Shown here piece by piece: positions 9,614 through 37,807 of a stretch of DNA of 58,138 bases (its first letter is position 1; each line of letters opens with the position of its first letter). Location of the stretch: assembly GCA_944381075.1 (NCBI GenBank), contig CALWJT010000031.1:1-58138 (forward strand). The letters are read 5' to 3'. This stretch comes from an uncultured Clostridia bacterium. GTDB taxonomy: Bacteria > Bacillota > Clostridia > Oscillospirales > CAG-272. Under the pieces are notes generated by a model that was given only the letters and a program-made list of their open reading frames with translations, had not been told where the DNA came from and made no database searches. The position numbers and the translations under genes were made by a program.

Positions 9614-9803
9614 TGCTGTTGTCTCCTTATTTCTTATCCGCACACGGGACGATTTTCTTTTCGTTCTAAATTACGGATATAAAAAATAAATATTGTAGAT
9701 TCGAATCTATTATACCAAACTCAAAAGACCTTTACAATAGAAAAATCCGAAAAACTTTTTGTTTCTTTTGAAAAAAATTTTTAGAAATTTCTTTTGAGAA
9801 AGT

Positions 9804-9833
9804 GTTGACAACCTCTATCGGTTGTGATAAAAT
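9804..9833 (+). promoter_or_regulatory. Promoter of tRNA-Arg
   Basis: TTGACA (9804-9809), an 18-bp spacer and TAAAAT (9828-9833), 19 bases before the tRNA. Confidence 0.8.
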
Positions 9834-9852
9834 ACCAGAGTACACAAAAAAT

Positions 9853-9928
9853 GCGCCTGTAGCTCAGTGGATAGAGTGCCCGGCTACGAACCGGTAGGTC
9901 GAGGGTTCGAATCCCCCCAGGCGCGCCA
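9853..9928 (+). tRNA. tRNA-Arg (anticodon ACG)
   Basis: A 76-base tRNA with encoded CCA. The acceptor arms are GCGCCTG and CAGGCGC, the D-arm contains AGCTCAGTGGATAGAG, the anticodon loop is CTACGAA (ACG), and the T-arm has GGTTCGAATCC. Confidence 0.96.
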
Positions 9929-9955
9929 TCTTGCGGGTATGAAAATGCAAGTTAA

Positions 9956-9996
9956 AGCCAAAAAGCCTTATAAAATAAGGCTTTTTGGCTTTTTTC
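9956..9996 (+). terminator. Terminator of tRNA-Arg
   Basis: A stem of 15-16 bp (AGCCAAAAAGCCTTA and complement) with a small A-rich loop is followed by TTTTTTC. Confidence 0.88.
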
Positions 9997-10467
9997 TCTC
10001 ATTTTTTATCTTTCAGGGCCGCGTAGCTTTTTCATCTGACAGGACTTGAATCTTTGATCCAGATCATATCCTTTCCCAAATGACTTGCTTTCGATAGAAT
10101 CGATACTGGAAGAGAAAGGCGGGAGGCGGAAAACGGGGGAATGGCAGGTGCTCGATCCGGCTGACAGAGACGCGCTTTGGGGAATGAGCGGTACATGCAG
10201 TAAGATGAGAACGAAAAAGCGAAGGAAAAGCCGCCTCCCGCTTTTATGATCTTCTGCTGCCTTGAGAAGCATAAAAAGAAACGTTAAATGGGAAACCGTC
10301 CTTATCCCAATATCATGGGATAAGGACGGTTTTGTCGGAATAGCAGGGATGGTGTATGAGGAAAAGGAAAGGATGGATTTTTGTCATAATGAAAAAAATA
10401 TAATGGGAAAAATATGATTTTTTAAAATTTTCGACAAATTTCTCTTTTTTTTTACTTTTTATTATGA
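9997..10467. other. Non-coding stretch upstream of the RiPP island
   Basis: No credible gene. The 88-residue leftward frame at 10006-10272 has no recognisable features. A terminator-like hairpin lies at 10293-10336. Base composition turns AT-rich after about 10360. Confidence 0.5.
10293..10336 (+). terminator. Terminator-like hairpin, left boundary of the RiPP island
   Basis: A perfect 17-bp stem, AAACCGTCCTTATCCCA and complement, with loop ATATCA, followed by TTTTG. No gene directly precedes it on the + strand, so it may insulate the island. Confidence 0.65.
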
Positions 10468-10473
10468 TATAAT
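10468..10473 (+). promoter_or_regulatory. Probable -10 box of the RiPP operon
   Basis: TATAAT in a very AT-rich stretch about 100 bases before the maturase gene. No good -35 box is seen at 17 bp, so an activator may be needed. Confidence 0.4.
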
Positions 10474-10574
10474 AAATAAAAAAAGAATTTGGATAGATAG
10501 CTTATTTTTTATAATATGCTTCAATTGTATGGCAGTTTGGAGAATAGATGCCTCGTCTTAGAATGGAGAACAAG

Positions 10575-11897
10575 ATGAAAAAAAGTATTTATTTATTGGA
10601 TTATGAGTCGAAAGATGGAAAATATTATCTTATGAGTACATATTCGGGCAATATAATTTCTATTGATTCTGCTAAAAAGAAGAAATTACAAAATATTCTT
10701 GATATCTCTAATACCGATATGGATAGAAATAGTCCTGTCGTCGATAAATTGGTCTCATTGGGGTTTATCATAGATGAAAATGTGAATGAATTTCAACGGG
10801 TTACGGGGGAACGCATTTTACGTAGCTTTACAGAAAACAATTATTTGGAATTGTCCATTATGCCGACGGAAAAGTGTAATTTCCGATGCGTTTATTGTTA
10901 TGAAAATTTTGAAAAACCCAAAATGAGCAATACTACTTGTGATGCTATTATAAAATATGTAAAAAAGCATATTGCCAACCATCAGGGACTTGTCGTTAGC
11001 TGGTTCGGTGGAGAACCATTGCTTGCGGTCGATGTCATTGAAAAATTGTCAGAGGCGTTTATTCAGATTTGCAAAGACAATCATAAAGTTTATCATTCGT
11101 CTATTACGACAAACGCATATCTTCTTGATTTGGAAACTTTTGAAAAATTGCGGAAGTTTCACATCAATCATTTCCAGATCACGGTGGATGGCGATAGAGA
11201 AACCCATGACAGCCAAAGGGTTTTGGCTGACGGACGAGGTTCTTTTGATGAGATCATGTCAAACCTTAAAACGATATGTGAACATGGAAAAGGAAATTTG
11301 TGGACGATATCTCTTAGGACGAATGTTACGAACCAGATTATCAAAAATATAGAGCAATTTAAAAATGATGTGCTACGTCCTTTTCGAGAGGATCATCGCG
11401 TTTACATAATGCTCAGAAAAATGTGGACAAACAATACGAAAGAGGCGGATTCCCTTATTTGCGACGACCATGAATTCGAACAGTTTATAAATGAATGTCA
11501 AATCAGTGCGCATTCTCTATATTTGGAATATGTGTTTTCACATAATATGAATTTTATGTGCTACGCTGCCAATCCGAATGCCTTTGTCATAGGATCGGAT
11601 GGCATGGTCTACAAATGCACATGTGGTTTTTATGATGAAATTAATCAGGTTGGAAGACTGCGGCCAGATGGGTACATGGCATTGGATACGGCAAAAATGA
11701 GTTATTGGGTTGCTCCACGGGCAGGAAATCAGGAAAAATGTATAACATGTGTAAATTATGCAACGTGTGTGTCCAATGGATGCCCTTATCATCAGGATCA
11801 GCCTTGTGATGGCAAAACACTGGATATCTTAAGATATTATATCCCTCAATTTTTCAAATTGGCCCAAAAGTCAGAAGATTTGTCTGATTTAATATAA
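10575..11897 (+). CDS. Radical SAM/SPASM peptide maturase of a RiPP system
   Basis: A 440-residue enzyme. Residues 1-80 form a small N-terminal domain (LMSTYSGNIISID, then VVDKLVSLGFII) of the PqqD/RRE-like kind that binds leader peptides. The radical SAM cluster motif CNFRCVYC lies at residues 101-108, followed by VSWFGGEPLL. The C-terminal Cys set (KCTC, then CITCVNYATC and NGCPYHQDQPC) resembles a SPASM domain for auxiliary iron-sulfur clusters. Such enzymes install thioether or other carbon-centred crosslinks on Cys-rich peptides. It resembles the Cys-rich-peptide maturase family CcpM as I remember it. GGAGA precedes the ATG at 10575. It heads the operon with the three precursor genes. 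Confidence 0.9.
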   Translation: MKKSIYLLDYESKDGKYYLMSTYSGNIISIDSAKKKKLQNILDISNTDMDRNSPVVDKLVSLGFIIDENVNEFQRVTGERILRSFTENNYLELSIMPTEKCNFRCVYCYENFEKPKMSNTTCDAIIKYVKKHIANHQGLVVSWFGGEPLLAVDVIEKLSEAFIQICKDNHKVYHSSITTNAYLLDLETFEKLRKFHINHFQITVDGDRETHDSQRVLADGRGSFDEIMSNLKTICEHGKGNLWTISLRTNVTNQIIKNIEQFKNDVLRPFREDHRVYIMLRKMWTNNTKEADSLICDDHEFEQFINECQISAHSLYLEYVFSHNMNFMCYAANPNAFVIGSDGMVYKCTCGFYDEINQVGRLRPDGYMALDTAKMSYWVAPRAGNQEKCITCVNYATCVSNGCPYHQDQPCDGKTLDILRYYIPQFFKLAQKSEDLSDLI

Positions 11898-11922
11898 AAA
11901 TATAATTAGGGGGAATTTTATT

Positions 11923-12246
11923 ATGAGTGAAGCGAATGTCTTAAAATATACGGAAGATGAAATGAAAGCGATTGTTCGTGAAGAATTCGAAAAAAATGGG
12001 ATCGATATAGATGATAGGGAATCGCTTGAGCATATGAATTCGTTGGAGTACATTTCTATTTTAGTCGCATTGGAAGAGAGATTTGAAATTGAGTTTCCGG
12101 ATGTGGTATTAACAAGAAATTTGTTTGTAAATATGGAGGATTTCTATCAATATTTAGGATGGCTTCTGGGGCTCAACGGATTGGATGAAGATCTGCTGCC
12201 TGAAGAAATCAATTGGGAAGGGGATGATAATCCATTGCTCATTTAA
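11923..12246 (+). CDS. Acyl carrier-related protein of the peptide maturation system
   Basis: A 107-residue acidic protein shaped like an acyl carrier protein. The helix-2 region reads HMNSLEYISILVALEERF, with Ser40 where the phosphopantetheine arm attaches in ACPs (usual DSL, here NSL), followed by the EIEFPD and VNMEDFYQYL helices. Family knowledge includes an ACP-related protein found beside Cys-rich-peptide radical SAM maturases, which fits this position. Whether Ser40 is modified is unknown; the Asp-to-Asn change next to it raises doubt. A TTAGGGGG site precedes the ATG. It lies 25 bases after the maturase. Confidence 0.8.
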   Translation: MSEANVLKYTEDEMKAIVREEFEKNGIDIDDRESLEHMNSLEYISILVALEERFEIEFPDVVLTRNLFVNMEDFYQYLGWLLGLNGLDEDLLPEEINWEGDDNPLLI

Positions 12247-12417
12247 ATCCTTTTTAAGGAATTAATGCTGTATTTAACTTGAGAATATGAAATTGGAATT
12301 TGGGTTTTGCAGAGACACGGAAAGCGTCTTTTGTGTGCCTGATATAGACTAGACTACTTACCATGCCAAAATTGAGACAAACAAAATATGGTAAAAATGA
12401 AAGAAAGGAGGGGTCAT

Positions 12418-12528
12418 ATGAGAAAAAAACTGATTCGAAAATTCATCAAGGCCAACGCTAAAGCGTCACTGTATAACCGAGAGTGTACCGGCAGCGGCAA
12501 CAATAATATTTGTAACTGCAAAAAATAG
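12418..12528 (+). CDS. RiPP precursor peptide 1 (36 residues)
   Basis: A tiny gene with a strong AAAGGAGGGG site seven bases before its ATG. The 21-residue N-terminal part is basic (MRKKLIRKFIKANAKA) and ends in LYNREC. The presumed core holds Cys23, Cys32 and Cys34 with a Gly/Ser/Asn-rich loop (TGSGNNNIC). It shares the R/K-K-hydrophobic start and the LYN-x-EC signature with the next two peptides, which supports a common leader read by the maturase. The cleavage site is not visible. Confidence 0.85.
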   Translation: MRKKLIRKFIKANAKASLYNRECTGSGNNNICNCKK

Positions 12529-12653
12529 ATTCAAGGAACAATGGATATTAGCAGAATTTTTGCGAATATAGGAGCACAAGACAGTCCGGAATAATTTCTT
12601 AGCTTTCTGAATTTGTGTCATCTGCAATCCCGTATGAAAGTGAGGTGAATTTC

Positions 12654-12758
12654 ATGCGTAAATTATCGCGCAAACTTAAAGTGAACCGGATGGTTACGGT
12701 ATACAATATTGAATGTGCGTCAAGTGGAAGCAACTATCGATGCAAACCTGGTTGTTAA
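12654..12758 (+). CDS. RiPP precursor peptide 2 (34 residues)
   Basis: A tiny gene with GTGAGGTG about seven bases before the ATG. The leader-like part (MRKLSRKLKVNRMVT) ends in VYNIEC, followed by a core with Cys21, Cys30 and Cys34 and loops rich in Ser, Gly and Asn. The arrangement matches peptides 1 and 3, but Cys spacing differs (9 and 4 apart). It is expected to be modified by the maturase upstream. Confidence 0.85.
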   Translation: MRKLSRKLKVNRMVTVYNIECASSGSNYRCKPGC

Positions 12759-12789
12759 TTATGATTTAATTTAAAGGGAGGAAATTAGG

Positions 12790-12894
12790 ATGCACCTCAA
12801 ACTCAAAAGAAAGATTGTCTTAAAAAAATTTGTTGTTTTATATAATATAGAGTGTGTAAATCCGAGTCGATGCGGCTCTAATGGTGTGTGTTGA
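12790..12894 (+). CDS. RiPP precursor peptide 3 (34 residues)
   Basis: A tiny gene with GGGAGG upstream of its ATG. The leader-like part (MHLKLKRKIVLKKFVV) ends in LYNIEC, followed by a core with Cys22, Cys28 and Cys34, evenly six apart. It lies 31 bases after peptide 2. A hairpin follows before the next gene, which may keep peptide transcripts more abundant than enzyme transcripts. Confidence 0.85.
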   Translation: MHLKLKRKIVLKKFVVLYNIECVNPSRCGSNGVC

Positions 12895-12915
12895 CATTTT
12901 AAGGGTTCAAGTGGA

Positions 12916-12942
12916 ATAGGGCGGCATTACGGCTGCCCTTAT
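12916..12942 (+). terminator. Weak hairpin between precursor genes and downstream enzymes
   Basis: AATAGGGC pairs with GCCCTTATT (one bulge) around GGCATTACGGCT; no T-run follows. It fits a partial terminator or an mRNA-stabilising end. Confidence 0.45.
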
Positions 12943-12981
12943 TCGTATGTTAAAATATTTTTAGAAAGAGATTGATGAATC

Positions 12982-13830
12982 ATGAAGCTCAACGATGGCG
13001 TAGTCAATAACAGCGATTATATTAAGGTGTTAAGCTTATTTTCGGAATATGATTTTAAGGAAAGTATAGAAGACTTTGCTTTTGAGTATGTGATCGATGA
13101 TGAACGCCTGACGAAACTCAAAGATGAGTTTAAATATAATGATTTTATAGATGAAGATCATCAATTTCAGTCTATGGTAAAGCTGATGGTGTGGGTATTT
13201 CATTCGTTAAGGGGAGATGGAATGTGTGTTCCACCATCCAAATTTAATGCGGAAACAGTATTAAAGCGTACAAAAAACGAAGGCTTACTTTCAAATTGTT
13301 ATATGTATGCTACCGTCCTAAATGAAATATTTTTGTCCATGGGTTTTTTTTCAAGAATGGTTCGATGTATGCCGGTGGATTTGAATTACGGCGACTGTCA
13401 TTGTGTGACGGAAGTATATAGCGATGATTATAACAAGTGGGTCATTTTTGACGCCGCAAACAAGGCATATTATGTGGACCGGCATATGATACCGCTGAAT
13501 CTTTTTGAATTAAGAGAGGCGGTGCGCGCTCAAAAAACAATATATGTTCCCGGAATGGGACGCGCACAGACGACAGGATTGATGCAATATTGGGCGAAAA
13601 ACTTAGTACGTTTTGAGAGTTATCAAATAAGCCGATATGGAAATGAAAGTGAACTGAGGGACAGCACGATGCTGCATTTTCAATCAAAAAATTTTCCAGT
13701 ATCCGATAAAACCGTGTATTATAAAGATTTTGATATCCGTATCCATCACATTCATACTTCTAATCCTCAGCTGTTTTGGAAAAGACCATATGAGCGGTGC
13801 GAAAAAGTTGTCGGGAGGGCAGAACCATGA
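12982..13830 (+). CDS. Transglutaminase-like protein in the RiPP cluster
   Basis: A 282-residue protein with a transglutaminase-like (papain-fold) core. The triad is visible: Cys106 in SNCYMYATVLNEIFLSMGFF, His140 in DCHCVTEVY and Asp157 in WVIFDAANKAYYV. The residues after Cys (SRMVRCMPV) follow the usual strand. There is no signal peptide, so it acts inside the cell. Members of this fold make or break amide or thioester links; a role in cleaving or further modifying the precursor is inference. Its stop overlaps the ATG of the first ABC gene (ATGA), showing translational coupling. Confidence 0.82.
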   Translation: MKLNDGVVNNSDYIKVLSLFSEYDFKESIEDFAFEYVIDDERLTKLKDEFKYNDFIDEDHQFQSMVKLMVWVFHSLRGDGMCVPPSKFNAETVLKRTKNEGLLSNCYMYATVLNEIFLSMGFFSRMVRCMPVDLNYGDCHCVTEVYSDDYNKWVIFDAANKAYYVDRHMIPLNLFELREAVRAQKTIYVPGMGRAQTTGLMQYWAKNLVRFESYQISRYGNESELRDSTMLHFQSKNFPVSDKTVYYKDFDIRIHHIHTSNPQLFWKRPYERCEKVVGRAEP

Positions 13831-15635
13831 AAACACTGAAATCGAACTTTAAAATGATCGCGATGTGCTATCGGGGCTCCAAGGCATGGGTGATATTAAA
13901 TGCGCTTGACATACTAATCAATCCGATACGGAATCTGACCATTGATGTGCTTCTCATCGGCTTGATCTACAATATGATAAGCGAAGGAAGACCGTTTCGG
14001 ACGCTGGTGCCGGTTTTCGGGGCGCTGATTGTATTCTATATCGGTACGGCGGTATACGAAGGCTTTTTGCATGCGAAAGTGGAGCCGAACGGGTCAATCA
14101 AAATTCAGAGACATATCGACCGCCTTCTATGCGAAAACGCGGCCGACGTAGAACTTTCGATGTTTGACAATGCAAAATTCTATGAGGAAAAGGTCTTTAC
14201 CGTTGAAAACTGTACGAGAATAGCGAAGAAGGCAGTGACCAATACTGCCAGCTTTTTCGCTTATTTGATCGGCGGCTTGATGTCGATGGGACTCATTACC
14301 GGAATAGAGCCGATGATGCTTATTTTTATCGCCATCTCGATCCTTTTTTCCTTACTGATCTCAAAGCGGCAAAAAAAAGTCGAACTGGCATTGAACGAAA
14401 AGCGCTCAAAGCTTTTGGCGCGCGAAAATTATGTCCAGCGCGTATTTTACGGCAGAGAATATGCGAAGGAGCTTCGCGCTTATCCGGAGCTTGCCGAAAT
14501 GAATCTGTCGCTTTTTACAGAGGTGGAAAAGGGAAACAAAAGGCTGACCAAAGCGTATGGCTTAAAAAAGCTGGCTTGCAATTTGCTGTCCTTGTTAAAC
14601 AGCCGTGTGCTGATGTATTGGCTGGTGATGCTGCTTACGGTGCTTTTGATCCAGTATCGCGGGGATATCGAGCCGGGGAACCTGCTGATTATGACAGTTT
14701 CCATCGCGACGGCAGCGCTTTTGATTCGGGCGATCACCAATACCATTCCGGAGATGGCCAATATTCGGAGCTATCAGGAAAAATTCGGTGATTTTCTTTC
14801 CTATGCGAAAAAGCGCCATGAATCGATGGGTTCGGTCAAGATAGATAAAGTGGAAACGATCGAATTTGAAGACGTAAGCTTTACCTATCCTATGGAAGAG
14901 GCACCGGTGCTGCATCACATAAGCTTTCAGACCAGAGCCGATGAAATGCTCGTGATTGTGGGGCTCAATGGCTCCGGCAAATCTACCATCCTCAAGCTTC
15001 TGATGGGCTTTTATCCGCCGGATTCCGGCAGGATCCTTATCAATGGGATCGATATGCGGGAGCTGGATATGGACAGCTATCTTGCAGCGGTGTCCTGCGT
15101 TTTCCAGGATGTTGTACCCTATGCGCTTCCGGTGGAGACGAACATTACCGCCGAAAAATCGGTTCCCGAGGGGGACCGGCTAAGAAAGGTGCTGGTGGAT
15201 GCCTGCCTCAGCGATGCGCTTGACAGGGAAGTGCTGCAAAAGGATCTGACAAAGCAGTTTTCAAAGGACGGCGCGGTATTGTCGGGAGGAACTCTGCAAA
15301 AGCTGGCTTTGGCAAGAGCTTTCTATAAAAATGCCTCTCTGGTCATCCTTGATGAAACGACGTCCGCGATCGATCCGGAAGCTGAGATGCAGATCATCGA
15401 GAGCATGGAACGCATGAAGAAAGGGCGGATCCTCGTACAGATTTCGCATAAGTTGTCCAATGTGAAAAACAGCAATCAGATCCTTTATTTGGAAAACGGA
15501 CAGATCGTCGAGTCAGGTACGCATCATGAGCTAGTGGAAAAGAAGGGAAAGTATTACGAACTGTTTCTCTATCAGTCTGAAAAATTTGAGAGGGAGCAGA
15601 GGAAGCATATACTGAAAAGCGAGGAATGGGCATGA
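13827..15635 (+). CDS. ABC exporter subunit 1 (fused membrane and ATPase domains)
   Basis: A 602-residue half-transporter. About six membrane helices fill residues 20-320. The ATPase domain (about 345-580) has Walker A GLNGSGKST, signature LSGGTLQKLALARAF (LSGGT instead of LSGGQ) and Walker B LVILDETTSAID. There is no N-terminal C39 peptidase domain, so leader removal must come from elsewhere. It probably pairs with the next gene as a heterodimer that exports the mature peptides. It overlaps both neighbours by ATGA junctions. Confidence 0.9.
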   Translation: MKTLKSNFKMIAMCYRGSKAWVILNALDILINPIRNLTIDVLLIGLIYNMISEGRPFRTLVPVFGALIVFYIGTAVYEGFLHAKVEPNGSIKIQRHIDRLLCENAADVELSMFDNAKFYEEKVFTVENCTRIAKKAVTNTASFFAYLIGGLMSMGLITGIEPMMLIFIAISILFSLLISKRQKKVELALNEKRSKLLARENYVQRVFYGREYAKELRAYPELAEMNLSLFTEVEKGNKRLTKAYGLKKLACNLLSLLNSRVLMYWLVMLLTVLLIQYRGDIEPGNLLIMTVSIATAALLIRAITNTIPEMANIRSYQEKFGDFLSYAKKRHESMGSVKIDKVETIEFEDVSFTYPMEEAPVLHHISFQTRADEMLVIVGLNGSGKSTILKLLMGFYPPDSGRILINGIDMRELDMDSYLAAVSCVFQDVVPYALPVETNITAEKSVPEGDRLRKVLVDACLSDALDREVLQKDLTKQFSKDGAVLSGGTLQKLALARAFYKNASLVILDETTSAIDPEAEMQIIESMERMKKGRILVQISHKLSNVKNSNQILYLENGQIVESGTHHELVEKKGKYYELFLYQSEKFEREQRKHILKSEEWA

Positions 15636-17395
15636 AAACATTCAAATCGATATTACAAGGCTTTCGATTGCTGCGCGATGTAGCGAAAGCGTCGCCCTGG
15701 CGGCTCCCTCTGGAGTTTTTCAGCGTCATCGCGGCCGTGTTGAATTCGATGCTTGTCCGTGTATATCTCGTGAAGCTTATCCTTGACGACGTGGTGGCGG
15801 GCGAATTCATGGCGGCAGTCCGGCTGATTGTGATCGCCGCTGTCGGAGATTTTATACTGAGCGCCTATGAATCGTGGATGAGCAGTCGCTTCCGTCCCTG
15901 CGACGGGGTGAGACTCCATGAGAGGTTCCAGGGCAAGCTGTATCGCAGAGCCGCCGGCGTAGAGCTTCGCTGCTATGATGATCCCGAATATTTTGACAGC
16001 TTTATCATGGCTGCCAAAAACAGCGATTCTACCGTTGGCAAGATGATTGGTTCAATCCGTGAATTTATGATTACGGTTGCCGAAATTATCATATCGGGAG
16101 GCTTTATCCTCTCCGGCCTGTCGGGACTGCTGCTTGTCGTACTGGTCCCCTCGGTATTGTATATCCTTGTGTCAGGCTTAAGTGCCAAGGCAAGGGTCGG
16201 GATCAGCGCAGCGATGAATCCGCAGCAAAAGCGGATGGAATATGTGAAGCGCGTTTTCTTTTCAAAGGAATCTGCGGTGGACATGCGTACCACAGGGCTG
16301 AAAAAACCGCTGCTGGACATGCTGGACGATGCATGTGACGATGCGATTCGTGACGGGAAAAAGTATACCGACCGGCGCACATGGTATTCGATTTTGCAGG
16401 GCGGCCTGTTCTATTTTCAGTACATATCGATCATTGCCGTGCTGGCATGGAGCGCGCTTGAAACGCATGATATATCGGTGGGCGATTTTTCCTTGCTGAT
16501 GTCTTCTGCGCTGGCCTTGGGAAACAATCTGCGGTTTTTTGGACAAACGGTAGGCGAGCTTGCCGAATACGGGCTGTTTTCCGAGTACTATTATCAGTTT
16601 TTAAAGCTTCCGGCCCGGACATTCTCTGCGCCGGACGAGGAATACAGAGAGACTCGCTTTCAGGACGTGTCATTTACGTATCCAGCGGGGACAGATCCGG
16701 TTTTCCGTGATCTGACGTTCCGGCTGCAAAATCATGAAAAGATAGCGGTCGTCGGTCCGAACGGCGCCGGAAAATCTACACTGGTAAGCTTGATGCTGGG
16801 CTTTTATCCACCCGACGAGGGGGAAGCTCTTCTCAATGACAGACAGCTGACGGCGGGCGACAAAGGATATTATTCGCTGATTTTCCAAGACAGCCGGCTG
16901 TATCCTTTCACAGTGGCGGAAAATTTACTGCTTCGTTCGCCAAGAGGAGAGGACGACCGAGCGGCGGTCAAGAGCGCGCTGGGAAAAGTACATATGTGGG
17001 AAAGAGTCGATTCGCTGCCTTTATCGATGGATACGCCGCTGACCAAGGAGTTTGAGAGCGGCGGCGTCGTCTTTTCGGGCGGGGAGGCGCAGCGCATCAT
17101 GCTGGCAAGAGCACTGCTGCAGCGGCGCTCGGTCTATATCATGGATGAGCCGACAGCAGCTCAGGACCCGAAATCGGAAAGCGAGCTGAACCGCTTATTC
17201 ACCGAACTGATGCGGGATGAGACGGTCATGCTGATTACGCACCGCCTGTCGACGCTGCCGGGCATCGACTATATCTATTTGATGGATGAGGGAAGAATGA
17301 TCGAGTCCGGCACGCACGAGGAACTAATGGCGCTGGGCGGACGCTATCATCATATTTATACCGTACAGGCAGAGCTGTTTTCTATGGAGGAGTAG
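15632..17395 (+). CDS. ABC exporter subunit 2 (fused membrane and ATPase domains)
   Basis: A 587-residue half-transporter. The membrane domain lies in residues about 20-310. The ATPase domain has Walker A GPNGAGKST, signature FSGGEAQRIMLARAL and Walker B VYIMDEPTAAQD, with the catalytic Glu kept, so both partners look active. The start at 15632 reproduces the ATGA overlap seen at the previous junction and has GAGG seven bases upstream; an ATG at 15626 in the same frame is possible. Confidence 0.9.
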   Translation: MKTFKSILQGFRLLRDVAKASPWRLPLEFFSVIAAVLNSMLVRVYLVKLILDDVVAGEFMAAVRLIVIAAVGDFILSAYESWMSSRFRPCDGVRLHERFQGKLYRRAAGVELRCYDDPEYFDSFIMAAKNSDSTVGKMIGSIREFMITVAEIIISGGFILSGLSGLLLVVLVPSVLYILVSGLSAKARVGISAAMNPQQKRMEYVKRVFFSKESAVDMRTTGLKKPLLDMLDDACDDAIRDGKKYTDRRTWYSILQGGLFYFQYISIIAVLAWSALETHDISVGDFSLLMSSALALGNNLRFFGQTVGELAEYGLFSEYYYQFLKLPARTFSAPDEEYRETRFQDVSFTYPAGTDPVFRDLTFRLQNHEKIAVVGPNGAGKSTLVSLMLGFYPPDEGEALLNDRQLTAGDKGYYSLIFQDSRLYPFTVAENLLLRSPRGEDDRAAVKSALGKVHMWERVDSLPLSMDTPLTKEFESGGVVFSGGEAQRIMLARALLQRRSVYIMDEPTAAQDPKSESELNRLFTELMRDETVMLITHRLSTLPGIDYIYLMDEGRMIESGTHEELMALGGRYHHIYTVQAELFSMEE

Positions 17396-17404
17396 TACCT
17401 TTGT

Positions 17405-19240
17405 ATGGGGAGAAAAAGCAAAATCGTCGTGATCGACAGCGGAATCAAGCGCTATCCGGAATTTCCTTCCGATAAAATTGATGGGTGCAGTATTGTCCGC
17501 GGGCCGGAGGGCGAATTCAAAATATCGGAGGAATACGAAGATCCTGTCGGACATGGGACGGCGGTTGTCGGTCTGCTTCTAAAGAAGGTCCAGTATATAG
17601 AAAGCATATTCTGCGTTAAGATCTTTGAAGATGCAGGCGAAATCGAAATGGATATGCTGATTGAAGCGCTTCGCTATGTATATCGATCAGTTGCTTGCAA
17701 TATGATCGTGATCGCTTCCGGAATCACATTTTGTGAGAGATGTGGAGAGTTATCAGAAATTATTGATCGGTTGTATCATAAAGGCGTATGCATCCTTTCT
17801 GCCTTTGACAACGAAGGCTCGATATCGTTTCCCGCTGTGCTGGATCCTGTGATTGGAGTTGCGATCGCGCAAGGCGGTGAGGATAAAGTGAAGATAGCTG
17901 TAAACAGCAAGGTAGATGTGATTGTTCCCGAGCATTACTATCGAGTAAGATGGGTGTCTCCTCCAAAGATTGTGATTGGGGGCAGCAGTTTTGCAGTTCC
18001 GAGTATCGCTGCGCATCTGATAGAAATCCTATACGAATCAGCTCCTACAGATCCTATGCCGGATAAAAGATATCTGCTGATTCGACTGGCCGAAAAGCTG
18101 GGCATAAAATATGACAGTTATGAAACGGCAATCCCCACATGGGAGAAAGGCAGTGCTTTTGTAAAAAAAATAAAAAAGGCAGTTGTTTTTCCTTGGAATA
18201 AAGAAATCCATTCGTTGGCAATGTTTCATGAATTGCTTTCCTTTCATATTGCGGGGTTCTTTGATGTAAAGTATGATTTGAATATTGGGAAACCGATTGG
18301 CAGCGGTACTTATCGAACGACAATTTATAATATCGACAGATTAAATTGGAGTGCTGACTTTGACACCGTGATTTTGGGTCACTGTCAGGAACTGGCTGTC
18401 TATTGCAAACGAGATTTCATTCAAGAAATTGTAGATAAATGTGTAAAATATCATAAGCGTCTTTACGCATTTGATCCGCAAGTGTATGAGTATATCACGC
18501 TCAGTCAGATTCAGATTGATTGTTTCGTGCCCGGAATAGACAAAATAGATATACCCAAAATGCTGGGAGGACGGCTGTATAATCGTTTGACTCCGGTGGT
18601 TGGCGTGATGGGGACAAGTTCGAGACAGGGAAAATTTACTGTTCAGATGGGATTGCGTGAGAAATTTATAAAAGAGGGATATGATGTGGGACAGATCACA
18701 TCTGAGCCATCTGGATATTTATTTGGGTGCGATGCGGTATTCCCGTTTGGTTACAATGCGAATGTATCTGCCAGTGCCGAGGATTCCGTTGCTGTCCTGA
18801 ACCAAATGGTATGGGATGCTTGCGCATGTAATACGAAGGACGTTGTCATCGTCGGAGGTCAGTCTGGTTCGGTGCCGTATTCTCATGGGAATTTATCTCA
18901 ATATAATTTCTACGGTTATGATTTTCTATGCGGCACCAATCCAGACGTGTTTGTATTATGTGTGAATCCGCATGACAGCGTCGACTATATCATACGGACT
19001 ATAAAATATCTGGAATCCTTTTATGGGATGCCTGTTGCTTCTATTGTGGTTTTCCCGCTAAAGTATGAAGCTAAAACGCAGATCGGCTATGGATACAGTC
19101 AAAGAAAAATTTCTTCCGACGAATTTGCAGAGATCAAACAAAATATATGGAGTAGAACCGATATCCCGGTATATTTGTTGGGAGAAGCTGACAGCATAGA
19201 CCATATCTATCAGGATATCCTATGTGTTCTTGGGGAATAA
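17405..19240 (+). CDS. Subtilisin-like (S8) protease fused to a DUF1611-like P-loop domain
   Basis: A 611-residue cytoplasmic protein with two parts. Residues 1-230 are an S8 protease: Asp11 in IVVIDSGI, His50 in DPVGHGTAV, oxyanion Asn136 in AFDNEG and Ser195 in GSSFAVPS. All catalytic residues are present, but there is no signal or propeptide. Residues about 260-611 resemble DUF1611: a Rossmann-like part, then a nucleotide-binding loop GTSSRQGKFT at 403-412. The protease is the natural candidate for cutting the precursor leaders before export. The P-loop part may regulate or modify; this is unknown. GGAGGAG lies 13 bases upstream. It is the last gene of the island. Confidence 0.85.
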   Translation: MGRKSKIVVIDSGIKRYPEFPSDKIDGCSIVRGPEGEFKISEEYEDPVGHGTAVVGLLLKKVQYIESIFCVKIFEDAGEIEMDMLIEALRYVYRSVACNMIVIASGITFCERCGELSEIIDRLYHKGVCILSAFDNEGSISFPAVLDPVIGVAIAQGGEDKVKIAVNSKVDVIVPEHYYRVRWVSPPKIVIGGSSFAVPSIAAHLIEILYESAPTDPMPDKRYLLIRLAEKLGIKYDSYETAIPTWEKGSAFVKKIKKAVVFPWNKEIHSLAMFHELLSFHIAGFFDVKYDLNIGKPIGSGTYRTTIYNIDRLNWSADFDTVILGHCQELAVYCKRDFIQEIVDKCVKYHKRLYAFDPQVYEYITLSQIQIDCFVPGIDKIDIPKMLGGRLYNRLTPVVGVMGTSSRQGKFTVQMGLREKFIKEGYDVGQITSEPSGYLFGCDAVFPFGYNANVSASAEDSVAVLNQMVWDACACNTKDVVIVGGQSGSVPYSHGNLSQYNFYGYDFLCGTNPDVFVLCVNPHDSVDYIIRTIKYLESFYGMPVASIVVFPLKYEAKTQIGYGYSQRKISSDEFAEIKQNIWSRTDIPVYLLGEADSIDHIYQDILCVLGE

Positions 19241-19925
19241 AGGATGGATCGAACCTAGCAAAGTCCAGCAATATCAAAAAATTGTAAAAATTGGGCTTGA
19301 CCGGCAAGCCGATAAATGCATTCGTGGCAGAGGATATCCGATAGAAGAGATCAGGGAACACGCTGCCTGTGACGCGGTGAAGCGGTGTTCTGCTTCTGTT
19401 TGTGATCGATGTTTTGATTGGGAGCTTATAGGGACAGTGGAGATAGAAAGGGATGCTTTCAATCTTTGTCGCTTGTCCTGATTAAGATGGGAAATCAAGA
19501 AAAAGAGGATCGAGTTTATTTCGGACAAACACCAATTTAAAAAGGAAGACTTTTTCTCCATTGACAAGGATACGGCGATTGCGCATGAACTATTTTTTCA
19601 ATCTTTATGTCCATGAGATATTTGACAATTTTTATGATAGAAAAGCAGAAAAAGCCTGCCATTTATAGAAACGGCAAGCACGCTTTCTTCTGCAATCACG
19701 GGAAAAGCATACGACAGTATCGTGTTAGACATTGATCGTCGGACCGGGCCTTGGGTTTTCCGGCGCATGTATATATCCGCTCTGCCGTCGAAGCTTCAGC
19801 CGGAGACGCTAAGGCTTGGCGGATTTATACAGATAGCTTTTTATAGTAAAATCCCGTAATAACAATATCATAAAAACATAAGGGGATCAAAGATATTTAC
19901 AATACCGAAAAGAGAGCCTTTTAAA
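19241..19925. other. Long stretch without a recognisable gene after the RiPP island
   Basis: Short frames exist on both strands (for example + 19224-19481 and - 19274-19567) but none shows a recognisable domain, a good ribosome site or family-like sequence. Fragments rich in Lys and Glu around 19490-19610 could be a decayed gene. No terminal repeats or integrase remains were recognised. Confidence 0.4.
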
Positions 19926-19969
19926 AGGAAGGCCTCGCTTCAGCAAGGAAGGGCGAGGCCTTCCTTTCG
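19926..19969. terminator. Bidirectional terminator
   Basis: A 12-bp GGAAGGCCTCGC stem and complement, 14-nt loop, flanked by AAAA and TTT. It ends both the RiPP region and the leftward P-II operon. Confidence 0.8.
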
Positions 19970-19971
19970 CT

Positions 19972-20652
19972 CTATTCCCCATAAAGCCGGAAGCCGGCAG
20001 TATTTGTCACCGGCAGGGAGAAGACAAGCGCATGCGCTTTGGTCCCCGCGCCGGCATGGTCAACAATCGCCTGCATGATGGCGTTTCTTTTTTCCTTGCC
20101 GGAGACGATATAAATGATCTCCTTTTCGTCGACGATAGAGATCCCGAAAAATTTTTCTGCGTATTCGGTGCCGGTCCCCTTGGCGTGCAGGATGGTCCCG
20201 CCGCCGGCGCCGGCGGCCCTTGCCGCCTCCATCACGTCTTCGGTATGTCCCTTGTTGCAGATGGCGACGATCAGCTCCATCGGCATATTTTCCGGCTGCT
20301 TTTGATTTGTCATTTCATCCTCCGCGTGTCCGCCCGAGAAAAAATCGAGCGTGGTTTTGGTTGCGATGCTGGTCAGCGGGACGGCAAGCGCGATTCCCTT
20401 GTCGGGAAGGTCGATCTGAAATTCCTTTTCCAGCGCGCCTGTCAGCTCTTCCATCTTGTTCTGTGTAATGACCGTTTGATGGATCACCTTTTCCGACGGC
20501 TCGATGCCGAGCAGGTCCAGCGACTGCGATTTGGCTGTCCCATGTGCCAGTGCGCTGTAGAGCCTTGGGACCTCAAGCTTTTGACAAAGCTCGATGAGTT
20601 CTTTGGCGTCGGATCGTTTGGAAATCATGATGTACCAATATAAATTCTGCAT
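19972..20652 (-). CDS. P-II-like regulator linked to DUF1538 transporter
   Basis: A 226-residue cytoplasmic protein made of two ferredoxin-like halves of the P-II type. The second half has the clearest pattern (MELIVAICNKGHTEDVMEAARAAGAGGGTILHAKGTG), like the effector loop region of P-II proteins, and the first half echoes it (YWYIMISKRSDAKELIELCQ). It starts three bases after the DUF1538 gene, and AGGTGG lies before the ATG. P-II proteins sense ATP, ADP and metabolites and gate transporters, so it probably regulates the DUF1538 protein. Confidence 0.82.
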   Translation of the reverse strand: MQNLYWYIMISKRSDAKELIELCQKLEVPRLYSALAHGTAKSQSLDLLGIEPSEKVIHQTVITQNKMEELTGALEKEFQIDLPDKGIALAVPLTSIATKTTLDFFSGGHAEDEMTNQKQPENMPMELIVAICNKGHTEDVMEAARAAGAGGGTILHAKGTGTEYAEKFFGISIVDEKEIIYIVSGKEKRNAIMQAIVDHAGAGTKAHALVFSLPVTNTAGFRLYGE

Positions 20653-34402: not shown

Positions 34403-34482
34403 TTGTTCAGGGTCTTTTTTAATCCGGACATGCGCTGTCCGGATTGTTCATTAAACTGTCAGACAGAAAGGAGGTGGTCCTC

Positions 34483-34836
34483 TTGGGAATGGCCGGACGG
34501 CAGAACGAGATCCTGCGGATCCTATGTCGGCGCAGACACGAAACCATATCGAATTTGGCGGCAGAGCTCGGCGTTTCCGAGAGGACGATCCGCCGGGATA
34601 TCGAGGAGCTCAGTCTTACGGCTCCGATATATACGCGGCCGGGACGGTATGACGGCGGCGTCTATGTGATGGACGGTTATACGATGGACCGTATGTACTT
34701 CAAGCGCAGCGAGGCCGATGTCATACGCGGCATCGTCTCGGCGGCCGAGAGGGACGGCGTGTGCGTGATCGGAAACGCTGAGCTTTTGATTCTGAAGGAA
34801 ATGCTTGCCTCCTATTCCAAACCTGTGGTGCAGTAG
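34483..34836 (+). CDS. HTH (DeoR/HTH_11-type) regulator
   Basis: A 117-residue protein. Residues about 5-55 are a winged helix of the HTH_11/DeoR type (RQNEILRILCRRRHETISNLAAELGVSERTIRRDIEEL), and the rest is a short C-terminal part (PIYTRPGRYDGGVYV) of unknown fold. The TTG at 34483 lies seven bases after AAGGAGGTG; the ATG at 34489 is the alternative. It precedes the carrier-protein operon and probably controls it. Confidence 0.8.
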   Translation: MGMAGRQNEILRILCRRRHETISNLAAELGVSERTIRRDIEELSLTAPIYTRPGRYDGGVYVMDGYTMDRMYFKRSEADVIRGIVSAAERDGVCVIGNAELLILKEMLASYSKPVVQ

Positions 34837-34854
34837 ATCATGAAAGGAGTAACG

Positions 34855-35955
34855 ATGAATTCATTTGAAAAAGAACTATTGCTTTGTGTGTGCCGGCTCC
34901 GGAAGCCGGACGGGGAGCGGCTGGAGACACTTTTGCAAAAGGGCGCGATGAGCGCCGCTGTGCTCGGCGAACTGTTTTGGAACCGGACGGCGGGGGTCGC
35001 TTACCATGTCCTTCGGGAATGCGGACTTTTGCCTTATCTGCATAGGGAAGCGCGGAATGCGCTGTCCCATGCGTGGGAACAGAATGTCCGGTATAACGAG
35101 AGCTATTTTCAGTGCCTCAAGCAGCTGCAGACGGCGCTTGCGCCCTGCGCAGGGCTTTTCGCGGTACTCAAGGGAGGAGGCGGTTATCTTTGCGCAAAAT
35201 ATCCGGACGGATGCCGTACCTCCAATGACGCGGACCTTCTGACCCTGCCGGAATCCCTCACCGCGCTCGGCAAAGCGCTTGCTGACGCGGGCTTCCGGCA
35301 GGGAAGCGTCCAAAACGGCGTCTTTGTTCCGGCGTCGAGAGAGGAGATCGTCCGTTCTCGGATGACGCGGGGAGAGACCGTGCCGTATCTCAAGGAGGTC
35401 GACCTGCCGTATCTGCGCTATTTTGAGGTGGACGTCAATTTTTCTCCGGACTTTAAAAACGGCGGGACGAAGACGGTCCGAGAGCTGCTTTCCCGTGCGG
35501 TATCCGTTCCGTTTCGGGATATAAGGGTCCCGGCGCTTGCAGGAGAGGATTTCTTCCTGCATCTTTGCGCTCATCTTTATAAGGAAGCGACCACATATCC
35601 CTGGATTTCCGGAAAGCGGGACATGACCCTTTATAAGTATGTCGATCTGTATCTGATGCTTTTCGATATGACGGAAGAGGAGGCGGTCCGCATCCCGGAA
35701 AGGGCGCGCGCGCTGAATCTTGAGACAGAATGTGCATTTGCGGTATCGGAGACGAAAGCGCTTTTCGGCGACGAGACGGGGACTGGCATAAAGATCCTTG
35801 AGAGACTAACCGACGTGTGTGCGGATTCGCTTTTGACGGTGATCTCTCCTGAGGAAAAAAAGAAATACCGGTATACGGAGCCGGACACGGCGGCGCGCTT
35901 TTTTGCCACGGACCGCACTGCACTTCTTGAGGAGGTGGGAGCATGGAGGCCCTGA
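34855..35955 (+). CDS. Nucleotidyltransferase-fold protein (PF14907-like)
   Basis: A 366-residue protein similar in layout to the PF14907 nucleotidyltransferase group found in natural-product clusters. The catalytic-like strand is FAVLKGGGGYLCAKY followed by RTSNDADLLT, with the D-x-D pair, and a further Asp lies in FEVDVNFSP. A helical C-terminal half follows (FFLHLCAHLYKEATTYPW). The acceptor is unknown. AAAGGAG lies five bases before the ATG at 34855. It overlaps the kinase-carrier gene by 13 bases. Confidence 0.8.
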   Translation: MNSFEKELLLCVCRLRKPDGERLETLLQKGAMSAAVLGELFWNRTAGVAYHVLRECGLLPYLHREARNALSHAWEQNVRYNESYFQCLKQLQTALAPCAGLFAVLKGGGGYLCAKYPDGCRTSNDADLLTLPESLTALGKALADAGFRQGSVQNGVFVPASREEIVRSRMTRGETVPYLKEVDLPYLRYFEVDVNFSPDFKNGGTKTVRELLSRAVSVPFRDIRVPALAGEDFFLHLCAHLYKEATTYPWISGKRDMTLYKYVDLYLMLFDMTEEEAVRIPERARALNLETECAFAVSETKALFGDETGTGIKILERLTDVCADSLLTVISPEEKKKYRYTEPDTAARFFATDRTALLEEVGAWRP

Positions 35956-36842
35956 ACCTGAAGGTGCATGACGGCACCGGCCTTTTGATTACCTTCTGCG
36001 GGCTTGACGGCTGCGGAAAGTCCACCATGATAGAAAAGACGGCGGCCTATCTTGAAAAAAAGGGACATTCGCTTCTGCTGACAAGGCAGCCGACGGACTT
36101 TGTTCGGCGTTCCGATATCTTCCGGACCTATATGGATCTGGAAGATCACGACAATTACGAATACCGCAGTCTCTCCCTGCTTGCGGCAAGCGACAGGGTG
36201 CAGCATAGCTGTCATGTGATTCTGCCGGCTCTGCGCGAGGGGAAAACGGTCATAAGCGACCGGTATTTTTATTCCTGCCTTGCCAATCTGCGCGCGAGAG
36301 GATATCGGGAGGACCGCTGGATCTATGAGATCGCGGAGACGATCCCGAAGCCGGACCTCGCGTTTTTCCTCGACGTTCCGGTAAAAACCGCTGTCGCGCG
36401 CGTCCGCTCGCGGGCAGCGGAGAAGGACCGGTATATCGACATGGCGCTCCAATATGAATTGCGGAAGGAATATCGGGAAATCTGCGGCAGGAGCGGCGGG
36501 ATCTTGATCAATGCAGAGGGACCTTGGGAACAAACCTTCGCCGCCGTAAGGGAAAAGATCGACGAGCTCCTTGCCCGCCGCCCGGACATGTCCGGACAGG
36601 TTTTGGCGCTTCTTGGCGAGCTTGCGGCAGGGAGCAGCGTTTGCAGGGAAAGCCGGCTTTCCGAGGACCTCGGCCTTGACAGTTTCGGGCGTGTTTCTCT
36701 CATTCTTGCGCTTGAGGAGCTTTTGGATGCGGAATTCGAGGAGTCCGACCTCGATCCTTTCCAGCTTGTCACGGCAGGCGACGTCGTGCGTCTTGCACAG
36801 AAATATGCGGGAGGAGCTTATGAAAATACTGCTGCCGTATAA
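35943..36842 (+). CDS. dTMP-kinase-like domain fused to a phosphopantetheine carrier domain
   Basis: A 299-residue fusion. Residues 1-212 are a thymidylate-kinase-like P-loop domain: Walker A GLDGCGKST (20-28), DRY motif (VISDRYFY at 103-110), and a lid with several Arg (ARVRSRAAEKDRY). Residues about 216-290 are an acyl/peptidyl carrier domain with the attachment Ser247 in LGLDSFGRVSL. This combination is unusual; a free-standing kinase of nucleotides would not need a carrier. The kinase part may act on the tethered group or a partner. Overlaps both neighbours in frame-shifted junctions. Confidence 0.88.
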   Translation: MEALNLKVHDGTGLLITFCGLDGCGKSTMIEKTAAYLEKKGHSLLLTRQPTDFVRRSDIFRTYMDLEDHDNYEYRSLSLLAASDRVQHSCHVILPALREGKTVISDRYFYSCLANLRARGYREDRWIYEIAETIPKPDLAFFLDVPVKTAVARVRSRAAEKDRYIDMALQYELRKEYREICGRSGGILINAEGPWEQTFAAVREKIDELLARRPDMSGQVLALLGELAAGSSVCRESRLSEDLGLDSFGRVSLILALEELLDAEFEESDLDPFQLVTAGDVVRLAQKYAGGAYENTAAV

Positions 36843-37806: not shown

Positions 37807-37807
37807 A

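Follow-up and report, generated by a model that had tools for sequence, protein, structure and literature searches.

A widespread branch of CLI_3235/CcpM-type peptide cassettes with a predicted subtilisin-DUF1611 fusion beside an intact acyl carrier protein

What do the genes at positions 10575-19240 of the window, by which we mean the whole 58,138-nucleotide stretch of DNA that was analysed, make together, and how do they relate to peptide systems already described? The gene calls bear out the order given in an earlier note on this DNA, with all genes on the forward (+) strand: a radical SAM (rSAM)/SPASM maturase, an acyl carrier protein (ACP), three Cys-containing precursors, a transglutaminase (TG)-like protein, two ABC half-exporters and a fusion of an S8 subtilisin with a TIGR04066/DUF1611 domain. 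Judged from sequence, as its genes, domains, catalytic residues, core selection and conserved cassette are, the region is a genuine RiPP operon that makes, trims and exports three small modified peptides. The note had read it in this way, and rightly so, as the maturase adjoins short precursor genes whose cores are conserved in a Lachnospiraceae contig (L110). ATGA overlaps join the frames of the TG-like protein and of the first half-exporter (13827-15635; PF00005, E 5.4e-28), as well as those of the first and the second half-exporter (15632-17395; PF00005, E 5.5e-26), which suggests a single operon. Between precursor 3 and the TG-like gene, the RNA is predicted to form a hairpin (12897-12966, + strand; -21 kcal/mol, z -2.63, 3/200 shuffles as stable), which is a possible attenuator or may protect the end of the precursor transcript.

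The three precursors are 34-36 residues long, all contain Cys and each has an RBS-like sequence 5' of it. They are precursor 1 (12418-12528, core YNRECTGSGNNNICNCKK, AGGAGG), precursor 2 (12654-12758, core YNIECASSGSNYRCKPGC, GAGG) and precursor 3 (12790-12894, core YNIECVNPSRCGSNGVC, AGGG). L110 encodes one-to-one counterparts in the same order, with core identities of 13/18 columns (13/16 of the first 16), 14/18 and 15/17; the leaders are poorly conserved. Among the 51 core codons compared, 17 are identical, 25 differ synonymously and 9 nonsynonymously, a pattern that indicates that the cores are under selection. Since the precursors are matched in order and their core differences are synonymous-heavy, they are more than chance. 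The three tiny precursors of the earlier reading are thus genuine, and homologues of them are found beside such maturases. None of the three matches TIGR04065 at E<=10, a model that the canonical precursors of L080 and L082 do match.

The maturase (10575-11897, from the ATG at 10575, with another in-frame ATG at 10548; PF04055, E 7.9e-22) shows CxxxCxxC and SPASM-type cysteines and is 54% identical to that of L110. The closest curated models are the rSAM/SPASM RiPP maturases TIGR04463 (194 bits, the best NCBIfam model among the matches listed), Clo7bot (173 bits) and CefB (150 bits), but the protein falls far below their cut-offs (525, 600 and 600). Against TIGR04068, the CLI_3235/CcpM maturase, it scores 110.9 bits at a cut-off of 500. 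Sactipeptide and ranthipeptide products are defined by thioethers that link Cys to a carbon in the alpha, beta or gamma position. Among the matches listed, none of the window's maturase, ACP, precursors, TG-like protein and fusion reaches an NCBIfam cut-off.

The set of processing genes had been called unusual. This applies to the S8-TIGR04066 fusion, which is distinct, but not to the rSAM, ACP-related, TIGR04066, S8 and ABC components. These make up the known CLI_3235/CcpM system, which consists of a TIGR04065 precursor, TIGR04068 maturase, TIGR04066 protein, TIGR04069 ACP-related protein, S8 protease and ABC transporter (e.g., Roseburia intestinalis L1-82, SacP23). Separate rSAM, ACP-related, TIGR04066, subtilase and ABC genes are present in loci above the TIGR04068 cut-off, and the gene set is described in passages of published work on Roseburia (PMC4573289) and on the SacP23 cluster of Paenibacillus polymyxa (PMC10731318). 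Common to the window and this system are the kinds of parts and a precursor plan in which a basic KKLxK-type leader precedes a hydrophobic-aromatic stretch that contains Glu, with Cys coming next. The window differs in that S8 and TIGR04066 form one protein, in that the ACP serine and the P-loop GK are kept, and in its three short precursors, two half-exporters and TG-like partner. On these comparisons, we assign the operon to a widespread branch of the CLI_3235/CcpM-type system that lies outside the curated models tested. The cassette recurs in 80 fetched loci, with an rSAM gene within 9.5 kb of the fusion in 63, and the branch spans Bacillota, Spirochaetota, Latescibacterota, KSB1 and Gemmatimonadota, at 27-44% identity to the window.

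The proposal that the product class is probably undescribed stands in so far as the branch lies outside the NCBIfam models listed, but a distant relative, SacP23, has a characterised product whose structure is unsolved. According to a passage on its purification, this product has a blocked N-terminus and an m/z of 3404, against 4455 Da predicted (PMC10731318). Our fragment-mass search for SacP23 was uninformative, with 36 combinations falling within 1 Da. As the serine is missing from the canonical ACPs examined, we rejected SacP23 as a proof of N-acylation. A search for literature joining rSAM, acyl carrier, transglutaminase and RiPP found nothing beyond PMC8120280, which deals with thioamide RiPPs.

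The subtilisin/DUF1611-like fusion proved to be one protein (17405-19240), as had been stated. Its S8 domain (residues ~1-251, 17405-18157) has a subtilisin fold and the triad Asp11-His50-Ser195; QhpE (NF049966, E 1.1e-16, residues 7-214) is its best curated model, with 60.9 bits at a cut-off of 165. We know of no QhpE that is fused to DUF1611. The C-terminal domain (18158-19240, to the stop codon) contains the P-loop GTSSRQGK and matches PF07755 above cut-off (E 2e-11). It also matches TIGR04066 (E 2.2e-23, residues 257-607), as a homologue that stays below the cut-off (82.8 bits versus 200); the canonical L080 protein scores 497 bits. The structure model (pLDDT 94) predicts a DUF1611 fold, with TM-scores by target of 0.70-0.73 for 2g0t, 0.65-0.68 for 2obn and 0.57 for 7xrj, which we take, from its PDB title, to be the N-acetyltransferase DgcN. 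DgcN is reportedly a stand-alone enzyme with a small-molecule substrate, whereas the DgcN-like domain of the window is fused to a protease inside a peptide operon. No RiPP is known to us in which a DUF1611 domain has been assigned an activity; our literature search on the fusion covered the terms TIGR04066, which is mentioned in 2 papers, TIGR04069 and DUF1611. Protease and TIGR04066 domain share a single ORF at 78/80 fetched loci, and the S8 triad and the P-loop GT...QGK are invariant in all 60 aligned fusions (59 of the 74 listed full-length fusions plus that of the window).

The window ACP (11923-12246; PF00550, E 1.1e-4, 22.8 bits, cut-off 20.8) has the phosphopantetheine serine of a functional carrier (NSL), preceded by Asn rather than Asp, as in 7/61 aligned ACPs. 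The serine is kept in 61/61 ACPs of the fusion branch, which were picked by profile (E<1e-6), a choice that could favour intact copies. An ACP lies within 9.5 kb of the fusion in 70/80 loci, and contig ends explain some but not all of the ten loci without one (not L134, L154, L156 and L178). The window ACP has no match to TIGR04069 at E<=1; the canonical L080 protein scores 119.8 bits. The canonical ACPs compared all lack the serine (0/9, excluding the L092 protein, which has no ACP-profile match), and in 11/11 canonical P-loops Asn or Gln replaces the Gly that precedes the Lys. Since the Lys itself is kept in all 11, we grade the canonical P-loop, by its residues, as degenerate and no firmer. 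Because serine and Gly are both lost in these loci, the carrier arm and the P-loop are apparently kept or degraded together, and the contrast may be a single event.

A candidate loader of the ACP is an AMP-forming acyl ligase (37808-39163, + strand; PF00501, E 2.5e-54; PF13193, E 1.4e-11), whose link to the operon is uncertain. It lies 17 kb downstream in DNA with a host-like GC3 of 0.67, versus 0.35-0.42 for the rSAM, ACP, TG and fusion genes. AMP-forming ligases are common enzymes. Ligases like that of the window, which is 44% identical to the one of L060, occur in 4/80 loci, two of them as fragments (L129, L135). Directly 5' of it lies a gene for a BtrH_N-like protein (36820-37803, + strand; profile E 2.7e-55; 36% identical to that of L060), whose link to the operon is likewise uncertain; in L060, too, the two genes are near each other. 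Between its TG-A and ABC genes, the cassette of L120 (Paenibacillus polysaccharolyticus) encodes a 585-residue protein that combines a ligase part with an ACP part at its C-terminus, and in L172 an AMP-ligase-like protein follows directly behind the ABC genes.

The TG-like protein (12982-13830; PF01841, E 3.1e-7) has a papain-type fold with Cys106-His140-Asp157, a C/H/D triad that is invariant in 15/15 TG-A proteins. Its structure model (pLDDT 90) resembles PDB entries at the superfamily level only (3isr, transglutaminase 3, factor XIII; TM by query ~0.3). The transglutaminase partner highlighted in the earlier note does recur, but it is optional: TG-A is present in 14/80 loci, although contig ends may hide some copies, and it is found at many positions, and mapping it onto the fusion tree requires 11 changes or more. 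As a defining feature it was rejected, with matches to the window TG in 20/295 genomes of the order (own included). In the 19 other TG regions fetched, neither the ACP nor the fusion was matched at E 1e-3, and we therefore treat the TG-like enzyme as accessory. Among these other regions, L036 has two ABC exporter genes beside the TG, L029 a short ABC-like ORF on the opposite strand (E 3.6e-11) and L032 a weak rSAM-like ORF (E 6e-4). PADLOC gave no match for the TG or the fusion; in PHROGs, too, the TG was unmatched, and the S8 part matched a protease family only. As a separate observation, an Asn near the conserved Glu of the core is seen in 12/12 TG-A loci versus 20/40 others with a loose motif (p 0.0016), and in 9/12 versus 11/40 with a tighter one (p 0.0056). 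The motifs were picked post hoc, relatedness was ignored and the 28/80 loci without a parsed core were excluded, so that this sequence mark of TG-A is only a hint.

We tentatively propose, at a little less than an even chance, that the operon makes a three-peptide product by radical crosslinking, by leader cleavage and carrier-dependent acyl transfer through the fusion, and by export; the step order, the chemistry, the ACP substrate, the cleavage site and the activity of the product are what we infer. The rSAM/SPASM enzyme would crosslink the short cores by radical chemistry, probably through Cys thioethers; these cores would start near a conserved Tyr-x-x-Glu-Cys. The cytosolic subtilisin domain would then cut off the basic KKLxK-type leader, a role we assign to it because neither exporter shows a peptidase domain (no C39 match in the Pfam profile scan of either half-exporter). 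The DUF1611 domain, with its DgcN fold and intact P-loop, would work with the holo-ACP to acylate the peptide once it is freed, most likely at the newly exposed N-terminus or at the conserved Glu; an AMP-forming ligase like that at 37808-39163 might load the ACP. The TG-like enzyme would add an optional step, probably acyl transfer or amidation, and the two half-exporters would form a heterodimeric pump. Against this scheme speaks the invariant P-loop, whose direct ligand is more readily seen as CoA or a nucleotide than as an ACP thioester. A bolder version, which we consider rather doubtful, sees one cut-and-cap polypeptide whose subtilisin half removes the leader and whose DgcN-like half acylates via a dedicated, ligase-loaded ACP. 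CLI_3235/CcpM would then be a reduced relative that has lost carrier chemistry; the conserved set of three peptides might serve as a signal, given the LytTR regulator and the GHKL kinase encoded in the closest cassette.

Alternatively, the ACP and the TIGR04066/DUF1611 domain might be non-catalytic helpers that bind the leader, act as a scaffold or chaperone the maturase, the only chemistry being crosslinking, cleavage and the TG-like step. The canonical genes persist despite the lost serine and the degenerate P-loop, and a structural role is probable there. In the fusion branch, however, both features are kept without exception across several phyla, and L120 has its ligase-ACP protein within the cassette, so that we regard mere helpers as doubtful for the window. 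It is unlikely that DUF1611 is instead an ATP-dependent activating enzyme, either a ligase loading the ACP or a kinase acting on the peptide, leaving acyl transfer to a TG- or BtrH-like partner. The intact P-loop and the invariant triad of the TG-A proteins are consistent with such an activator, as are the BtrH_N-like proteins near 57/80 fusions, besides the one 17 kb off in the window, and BtrH of butirosin is described in a passage of PMC10318531 as an ACP-dependent acyltransferase. Yet TG-A is missing from 66/80 loci, and ten aligned BtrH-like proteins share two invariant His columns but no Cys column (max 3/10). Their relation to BtrH_N is weak, as a Pfam scan of nine such proteins or parts matched only L023 (E 1.1e-4, below cut-off), and the window protein had no Pfam or NCBIfam match. 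BtrH/BtrI and AdmF (andrimid), the latter reportedly also a papain-/transglutaminase-fold acyltransferase using a carrier-protein thioester, act in non-ribosomal small-molecule pathways.

Two further readings concern the TG-like protein itself. That Gln-Lys isopeptide bonds between precursors define the product class is highly improbable, even though the protein has a Transglut_core domain and counts transglutaminase 3 and factor XIII among its structural matches. All three window precursors lack Gln, the acyl donor of the classical substrate pair, and we rejected classical crosslinking for these peptides on that account; Gln occurs in only 5/21 hand-picked cores of TG-A loci, and neither the 14/80 distribution nor the low TM to any one structure favours it. 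A leader peptidase or C-terminal trimming peptidase, with S8 making a second cut, is very unlikely as well. Transglutaminase-fold proteins can be RiPP peptidases, e.g., McjB (in a passage of PMC10318531), and TG-B, a second papain-like family, is associated with cores that end in CG(x)[LY]x[WF] (5/6 TG-B loci versus 0/74 others), a motif chosen post hoc. However, with 66/80 loci having the S8 fusion but no TG-A, S8 can suffice as leader protease, and the positions of TG-A vary widely.

Returning to carrier-dependent acyl transfer, a protease-acyltransferase-like fusion beside an intact ACP points to a novel route by which such peptides could be cut and capped. For CLI_3235-type systems, a passage of PMC10731318 offers guessed roles, with the ACP homologue in precursor modification and TIGR04066 in immunity. 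The present branch keeps both apparently active, the second fused to a protease, and these roles are therefore directly testable with three components, namely a ~600-residue fusion, an ACP and a peptide of 34 residues, for which the three strictly ordered cores offer substrates that are ready to use. Should acyl transfer prove true, ribosomal peptides would have an added modification route, with 80 fetched loci to mine, and cut-and-cap chemistry would mean a ribosomal-peptide pathway borrowing from carrier proteins.

Finally, the AT-richness pointed out in the earlier note is real, with GC3 values of 0.35 (rSAM), 0.37 (ACP), 0.38 (TG) and 0.42 (fusion) versus 0.59 and 0.62 for the ABC genes. 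The transfer that it was said to suggest is plausible, but a search of plasmid and phage records with the fusion found nothing at E 1e-10. We also rejected integration at the tRNA-Arg gene (9853-9928), as its last 14 bases are not copied on either strand of 9929-30000; of the 50 direct-repeat families in 9700-20000, 20 were inspected. Moreover, AT-richness relative to the flanks is general in these cassettes, the GC3 of the fusion being below that of its flanks in 59/69 loci.

The run of peptide-operon genes that the earlier note had read from the sequence is present in the order proposed, with all genes on the + strand: a radical SAM (rSAM)/SPASM maturase (10575-11897), an ACP (11923-12246), three precursors (12418-12528, 12654-12758 and 12790-12894), a transglutaminase-like (TG) protein (12982-13830), two ABC half-exporters (13827-15635 and 15632-17395) and a 611-residue protein (17405-19240), termed the fusion, which consists of an N-terminal S8 subtilisin and a C-terminal TIGR04066/DUF1611 domain. 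ATGA overlaps join the TG gene to the first ABC gene and the first ABC gene to the second. This is almost certainly a RiPP operon, real and conserved, in a branch outside the curated models. It is of a kind already known; the branch and, likely, the chemistry are new. A stable predicted hairpin (12897-12966), flanked by the third precursor on one side and the TG gene on the other, could be an attenuator and would then favour the precursor transcript.

The known kind is the CLI_3235/CcpM system, whose loci are termed canonical here. Maturases over the TIGR04068 cut-off occur in 9 of 291 genomes of the class. Fourteen regions were fetched around the better TIGR04068 matches, and ten of them have a separate TIGR04066-like protein (L079-L086, L091 and L092; the L086 maturase, at 482 bits, is slightly below the cut-off of 500). 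Within the stretch fetched, five of these ten canonical loci contain a subtilase, which is a separate gene in L082, L084, L085 and L091 and part of a 929-residue ORF in L081. The models score 497 bits (TIGR04066), 120 bits (TIGR04069) and 62 bits (TIGR04065) in L080. The same kinds of part are described for a cluster of Roseburia intestinalis (PMC4573289) and for the SacP23 cluster (PMC10731318). Since the canonical loci and the published clusters have the same parts, the window system is a relative of this kind. However, its rSAM matches best TIGR04463 (194 bits, cut-off 525) and reaches only 111 bits with TIGR04068 (cut-off 500), the fusion scores 83 bits with TIGR04066 (cut-off 200), and neither the ACP nor the precursors match TIGR04069 or TIGR04065, respectively. 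Thus, with no NCBIfam cut-off reached among the matches listed, the window is not filed as a CcpM system. Near the canonical locus of L079, a gene fragment (L079:11279-13000) encodes one protein with KR, ACP and BtrH_N domains.

Fusion matches were found in 10 of 395 genomes sampled from the family, at 13 places, two of which cover the C-terminal part only, and in 13 of 394 genomes from the order. A scan of one genome per species over 84,980 species yielded 135 fusion relatives, the best 80 of which are the named loci; several of these can come from one genome. The best 80 of 135 loci are mainly from Bacillota (Lachnospiraceae, Oscillospiraceae, Paenibacillaceae and others), the other hosts being Treponema and further Spirochaetota, Latescibacterota, KSB1 and Gemmatimonadota. 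The S8 and TIGR04066 parts form a single ORF in 78 of the 80 loci and adjoining ORFs in L135 and L171. Counted up to 9.5 kb from the fusion at E<=0.01, an ACP is found in 70 loci, an rSAM belonging to the same family as the window's in 63 (58 at a stricter threshold) and a protein like the N-part of butirosin BtrH (BtrH_N-like protein) in 57. TG proteins of the window type (TG-A) are found in 14, and members of another papain-like family (TG-B) in 6. ABC genes are present in 65 of the 80 loci. As contig ends truncate some loci, all these counts are lower bounds. The genome from which the window comes contains one more cassette, a distant one, on a different contig whose end cuts it; this second cassette comprises two ABC genes, the fusion, a BtrH_N-like protein and a precursor, MKTLKKKMTKQSKLVCLYAVEGGMNYQCTIWH (G000:C32, L023:12667-18289). 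Sequence repeats stand at this contig end, and further precursor copies may be missing.

Some loci carry additional proteins. Second rSAM proteins near the maturase, at L059:2950-4539 (PF04055 4e-12) and L061:5880-7418 (PF04055 2.6e-5 and B12-binding 1.6e-6, both under the cut-off), are possible extra tailoring enzymes. A putative degenerate polysaccharide-deacetylase domain is fused to or lies beside the BtrH_N-like protein in L102 (Pfam, E 0.0014, under the cut-off) and, judged by eye, in L103 and L108. The loci from Latescibacterota and Gemmatimonadota (L186, L188 and L189) contain the fusion and an ACP, joined in L186 and L188 by a BtrH_N-like protein; no precursor was recognised in these three, of which L188 and L189 are cut by contig ends.

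The island is AT-rich, as had been noticed beforehand: GC3 is 0.35-0.38 for the rSAM, ACP and TG genes and 0.42 for the fusion, compared to 0.59 and 0.62 for the ABC genes. The transfer that had been proposed from this composition is plausible but does not follow from it. GC3 of the fusion is below that of the flanking genes in 59 of 69 loci and below that of the cassette's own ABC genes in 60 of 65; AT-richness is therefore a general trait of these cassettes and no proof of recent transfer in the window. A tRNA-Arg (acg) gene (9853-9928) lies directly upstream of the AT-rich island, and no copy of its end was found downstream up to position 30000 of the window.

The phosphopantetheine serine is present in all 61 aligned ACPs (60 of the fused branch, matching the profile at E<1e-6, and the window's) and is preceded by Asp in 51, Asn in 7, including the window, and Glu in 3. 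The fusion keeps the triad Asp11, His50 and Ser195 and the P-loop GT...QGK in 60 of 60 aligned sequences (59 of the 74 full-length fusions and the window's). In contrast, the profile-matching canonical ACP-related proteins (n=9) carry Ala or Pro in place of the serine, which none of them keeps; excluded from this count are the aligned proteins of L092, which has Ile at this site and no profile match, and of L088, which has the serine but comes from a locus whose maturase is below the cut-off and in which no TIGR04066 was found. Likewise, the canonical TIGR04066-like proteins replace the Gly before the P-loop Lys by Asn or Gln (11/11) and the Gln of QGK by Thr or Cys, the Lys being retained in 11/11. 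Thus, both features are intact in the fused branch and both are lost or degenerate in the canonical one. The simplest reading of these alignments is a joint function, in which the ACP and the P-loop domain would act together and the described canonical system would be a reduced one; the branches supply one such contrast, which may go back to a single event.

What this function might be is suggested by the structure model of the fusion (mean pLDDT 94, pTM 0.92). Compared with the PDB, the model as a whole is most similar to the DUF1611 protein 2g0t (TM by target 0.70-0.73), which a profile of the C-terminal part also matched among PDB sequences (4.3e-8); 2obn (0.65-0.68), 7xrj (0.57), titled N-acetyltransferase DgcN, and many subtilisins are further matches. 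An acyltransferase-fold domain, a cytosolic leader protease and an adjoining ACP together suggest acylation of the peptide, whereby the fusion would modify the new N-terminus or the conserved Glu. We consider an acyl-transfer mechanism a serious candidate, slightly short of an even chance. The complete scheme, in which the S8 half removes the leader, the DgcN-like half acylates the freed peptide with an ACP-borne acyl group and an AMP-forming ligase loads the ACP, is rather unlikely. An ACP also accompanies the fusion in L116 and L185, which have a short rSAM (by Pfam) as maturase, and in L139, L147, L168, L186, L188 and L189, where the maturase profile finds no rSAM (L188 and L189 are cut near the fusion); L147 encodes a precursor without Cys in which the leader motif is present (VTLYIYEGEG, L147:9605-9808). 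Judging by this gene content, fusion and ACP seem to form a unit that can occur apart from the radical chemistry.

A ligase gene is present in the window 17 kb downstream of the operon, where a BtrH_N-like gene (36820-37803, +; E 2.7e-55 in the whole-window profile check) immediately precedes that of an AMP-forming acyl ligase (37808-39163, +; PF00501 2.5e-54), both with host-like GC3 (0.66-0.67). They end a + strand row (34444-39163) that begins with an HTH protein and a PF14907 nucleotidyltransferase and may either serve the operon as a partner module or form a separate pathway. In L060, a ligase (44% identical to the window's) and a BtrH-like gene (36%) lie one gene apart, at least 2.7 kb upstream of the maturase. 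Ligase-like ORFs occur in four of the 80 loci: immediately after the ABC genes in L172, as fragments in L129 and L135, and within the cassette in L120, where a 585-residue ligase-like protein with a C-terminal ACP part is encoded between TG-A, one further gene and ABC. Because AMP-forming ligases are common, their link to the cassette is suggestive outside L120. The L120 cassette (L120:9648-20018, Paenibacillus polysaccharolyticus) is a single run of ACP, fusion, BtrH-like protein, rSAM, TG-A, a 366 aa protein, the ligase-ACP protein and ABC.

TG-A retains its catalytic Cys, His and Asp in 15 of 15 proteins. Its position varies among cassettes, and the fusion tree (80 rows, 15 with TG-A) requires at least 11 changes, though some of the absences may be due to contig ends (L123 and L133 are paired with rows that have TG-A). 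TG-A thus looks like an accessory that is often gained or lost, and regions fetched by the TG alone show mainly other gene contexts. Gln is absent from all three window precursors and present in 5 of 21 cores picked by hand from TG-A loci. TG-B has a Cys-His-Asp triad in 6 of 6 proteins, as read from the alignment. Precursors ending in CG(x)[LY]x[WF], a motif fitted after viewing the members, occur in five of the six TG-B loci versus none of the 74 others, which links these enzymes to the core sequence and hence to tailoring. Proteins of this family, of about 275 aa, were seen in L061, L104, L106, L128, L145, L168, L173, L182 and L184; the two scanned (L061 and L128) have no Pfam match.

The precursors share a basic KKLxK/KP leader, followed by a hydrophobic-x-[LVA]-Tyr-x(1-3)-Glu motif ahead of the Cys-rich part; the strict form [LVIAMFTSY]-[YF]-x-x-E is found in 51 of 102 candidates, a mechanical listing that includes chance ORFs. 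The nearest relative of the window, and its sister in a quick tree of fusions (SH-aLRT 100), is a MAG contig from Lachnospiraceae with the title water deer cecum (L110). It encodes, in this order, an rSAM (54% identical to the window's), an ACP (43%), three precursors, a TG (54%) and the fusion (44%), followed by genes for a LytTR regulator and a GHKL kinase and by two ABC genes (33-35%); the two cassettes seem to differ by an exchange of the exporter. The three cores pair one-to-one with the window's in the same order (identities in 13 of 18, 14 of 18 and 15 of 17 columns), and the leaders are poorly kept (7/18 and 4/18 aligned positions identical in pairs 1 and 3). Over 51 core codons, 17 are identical, 25 differ synonymously and 9 nonsynonymously. 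Judged from these codons, the three distinct cores are under purifying selection, which points to a product that would have three parts. Pairs of a LytTR regulator and a GHKL kinase are usual in peptide-pheromone circuits and, given that genes for such a response regulator and kinase lie within the L110 cassette (L110:5194-6748), its product may be a signal.
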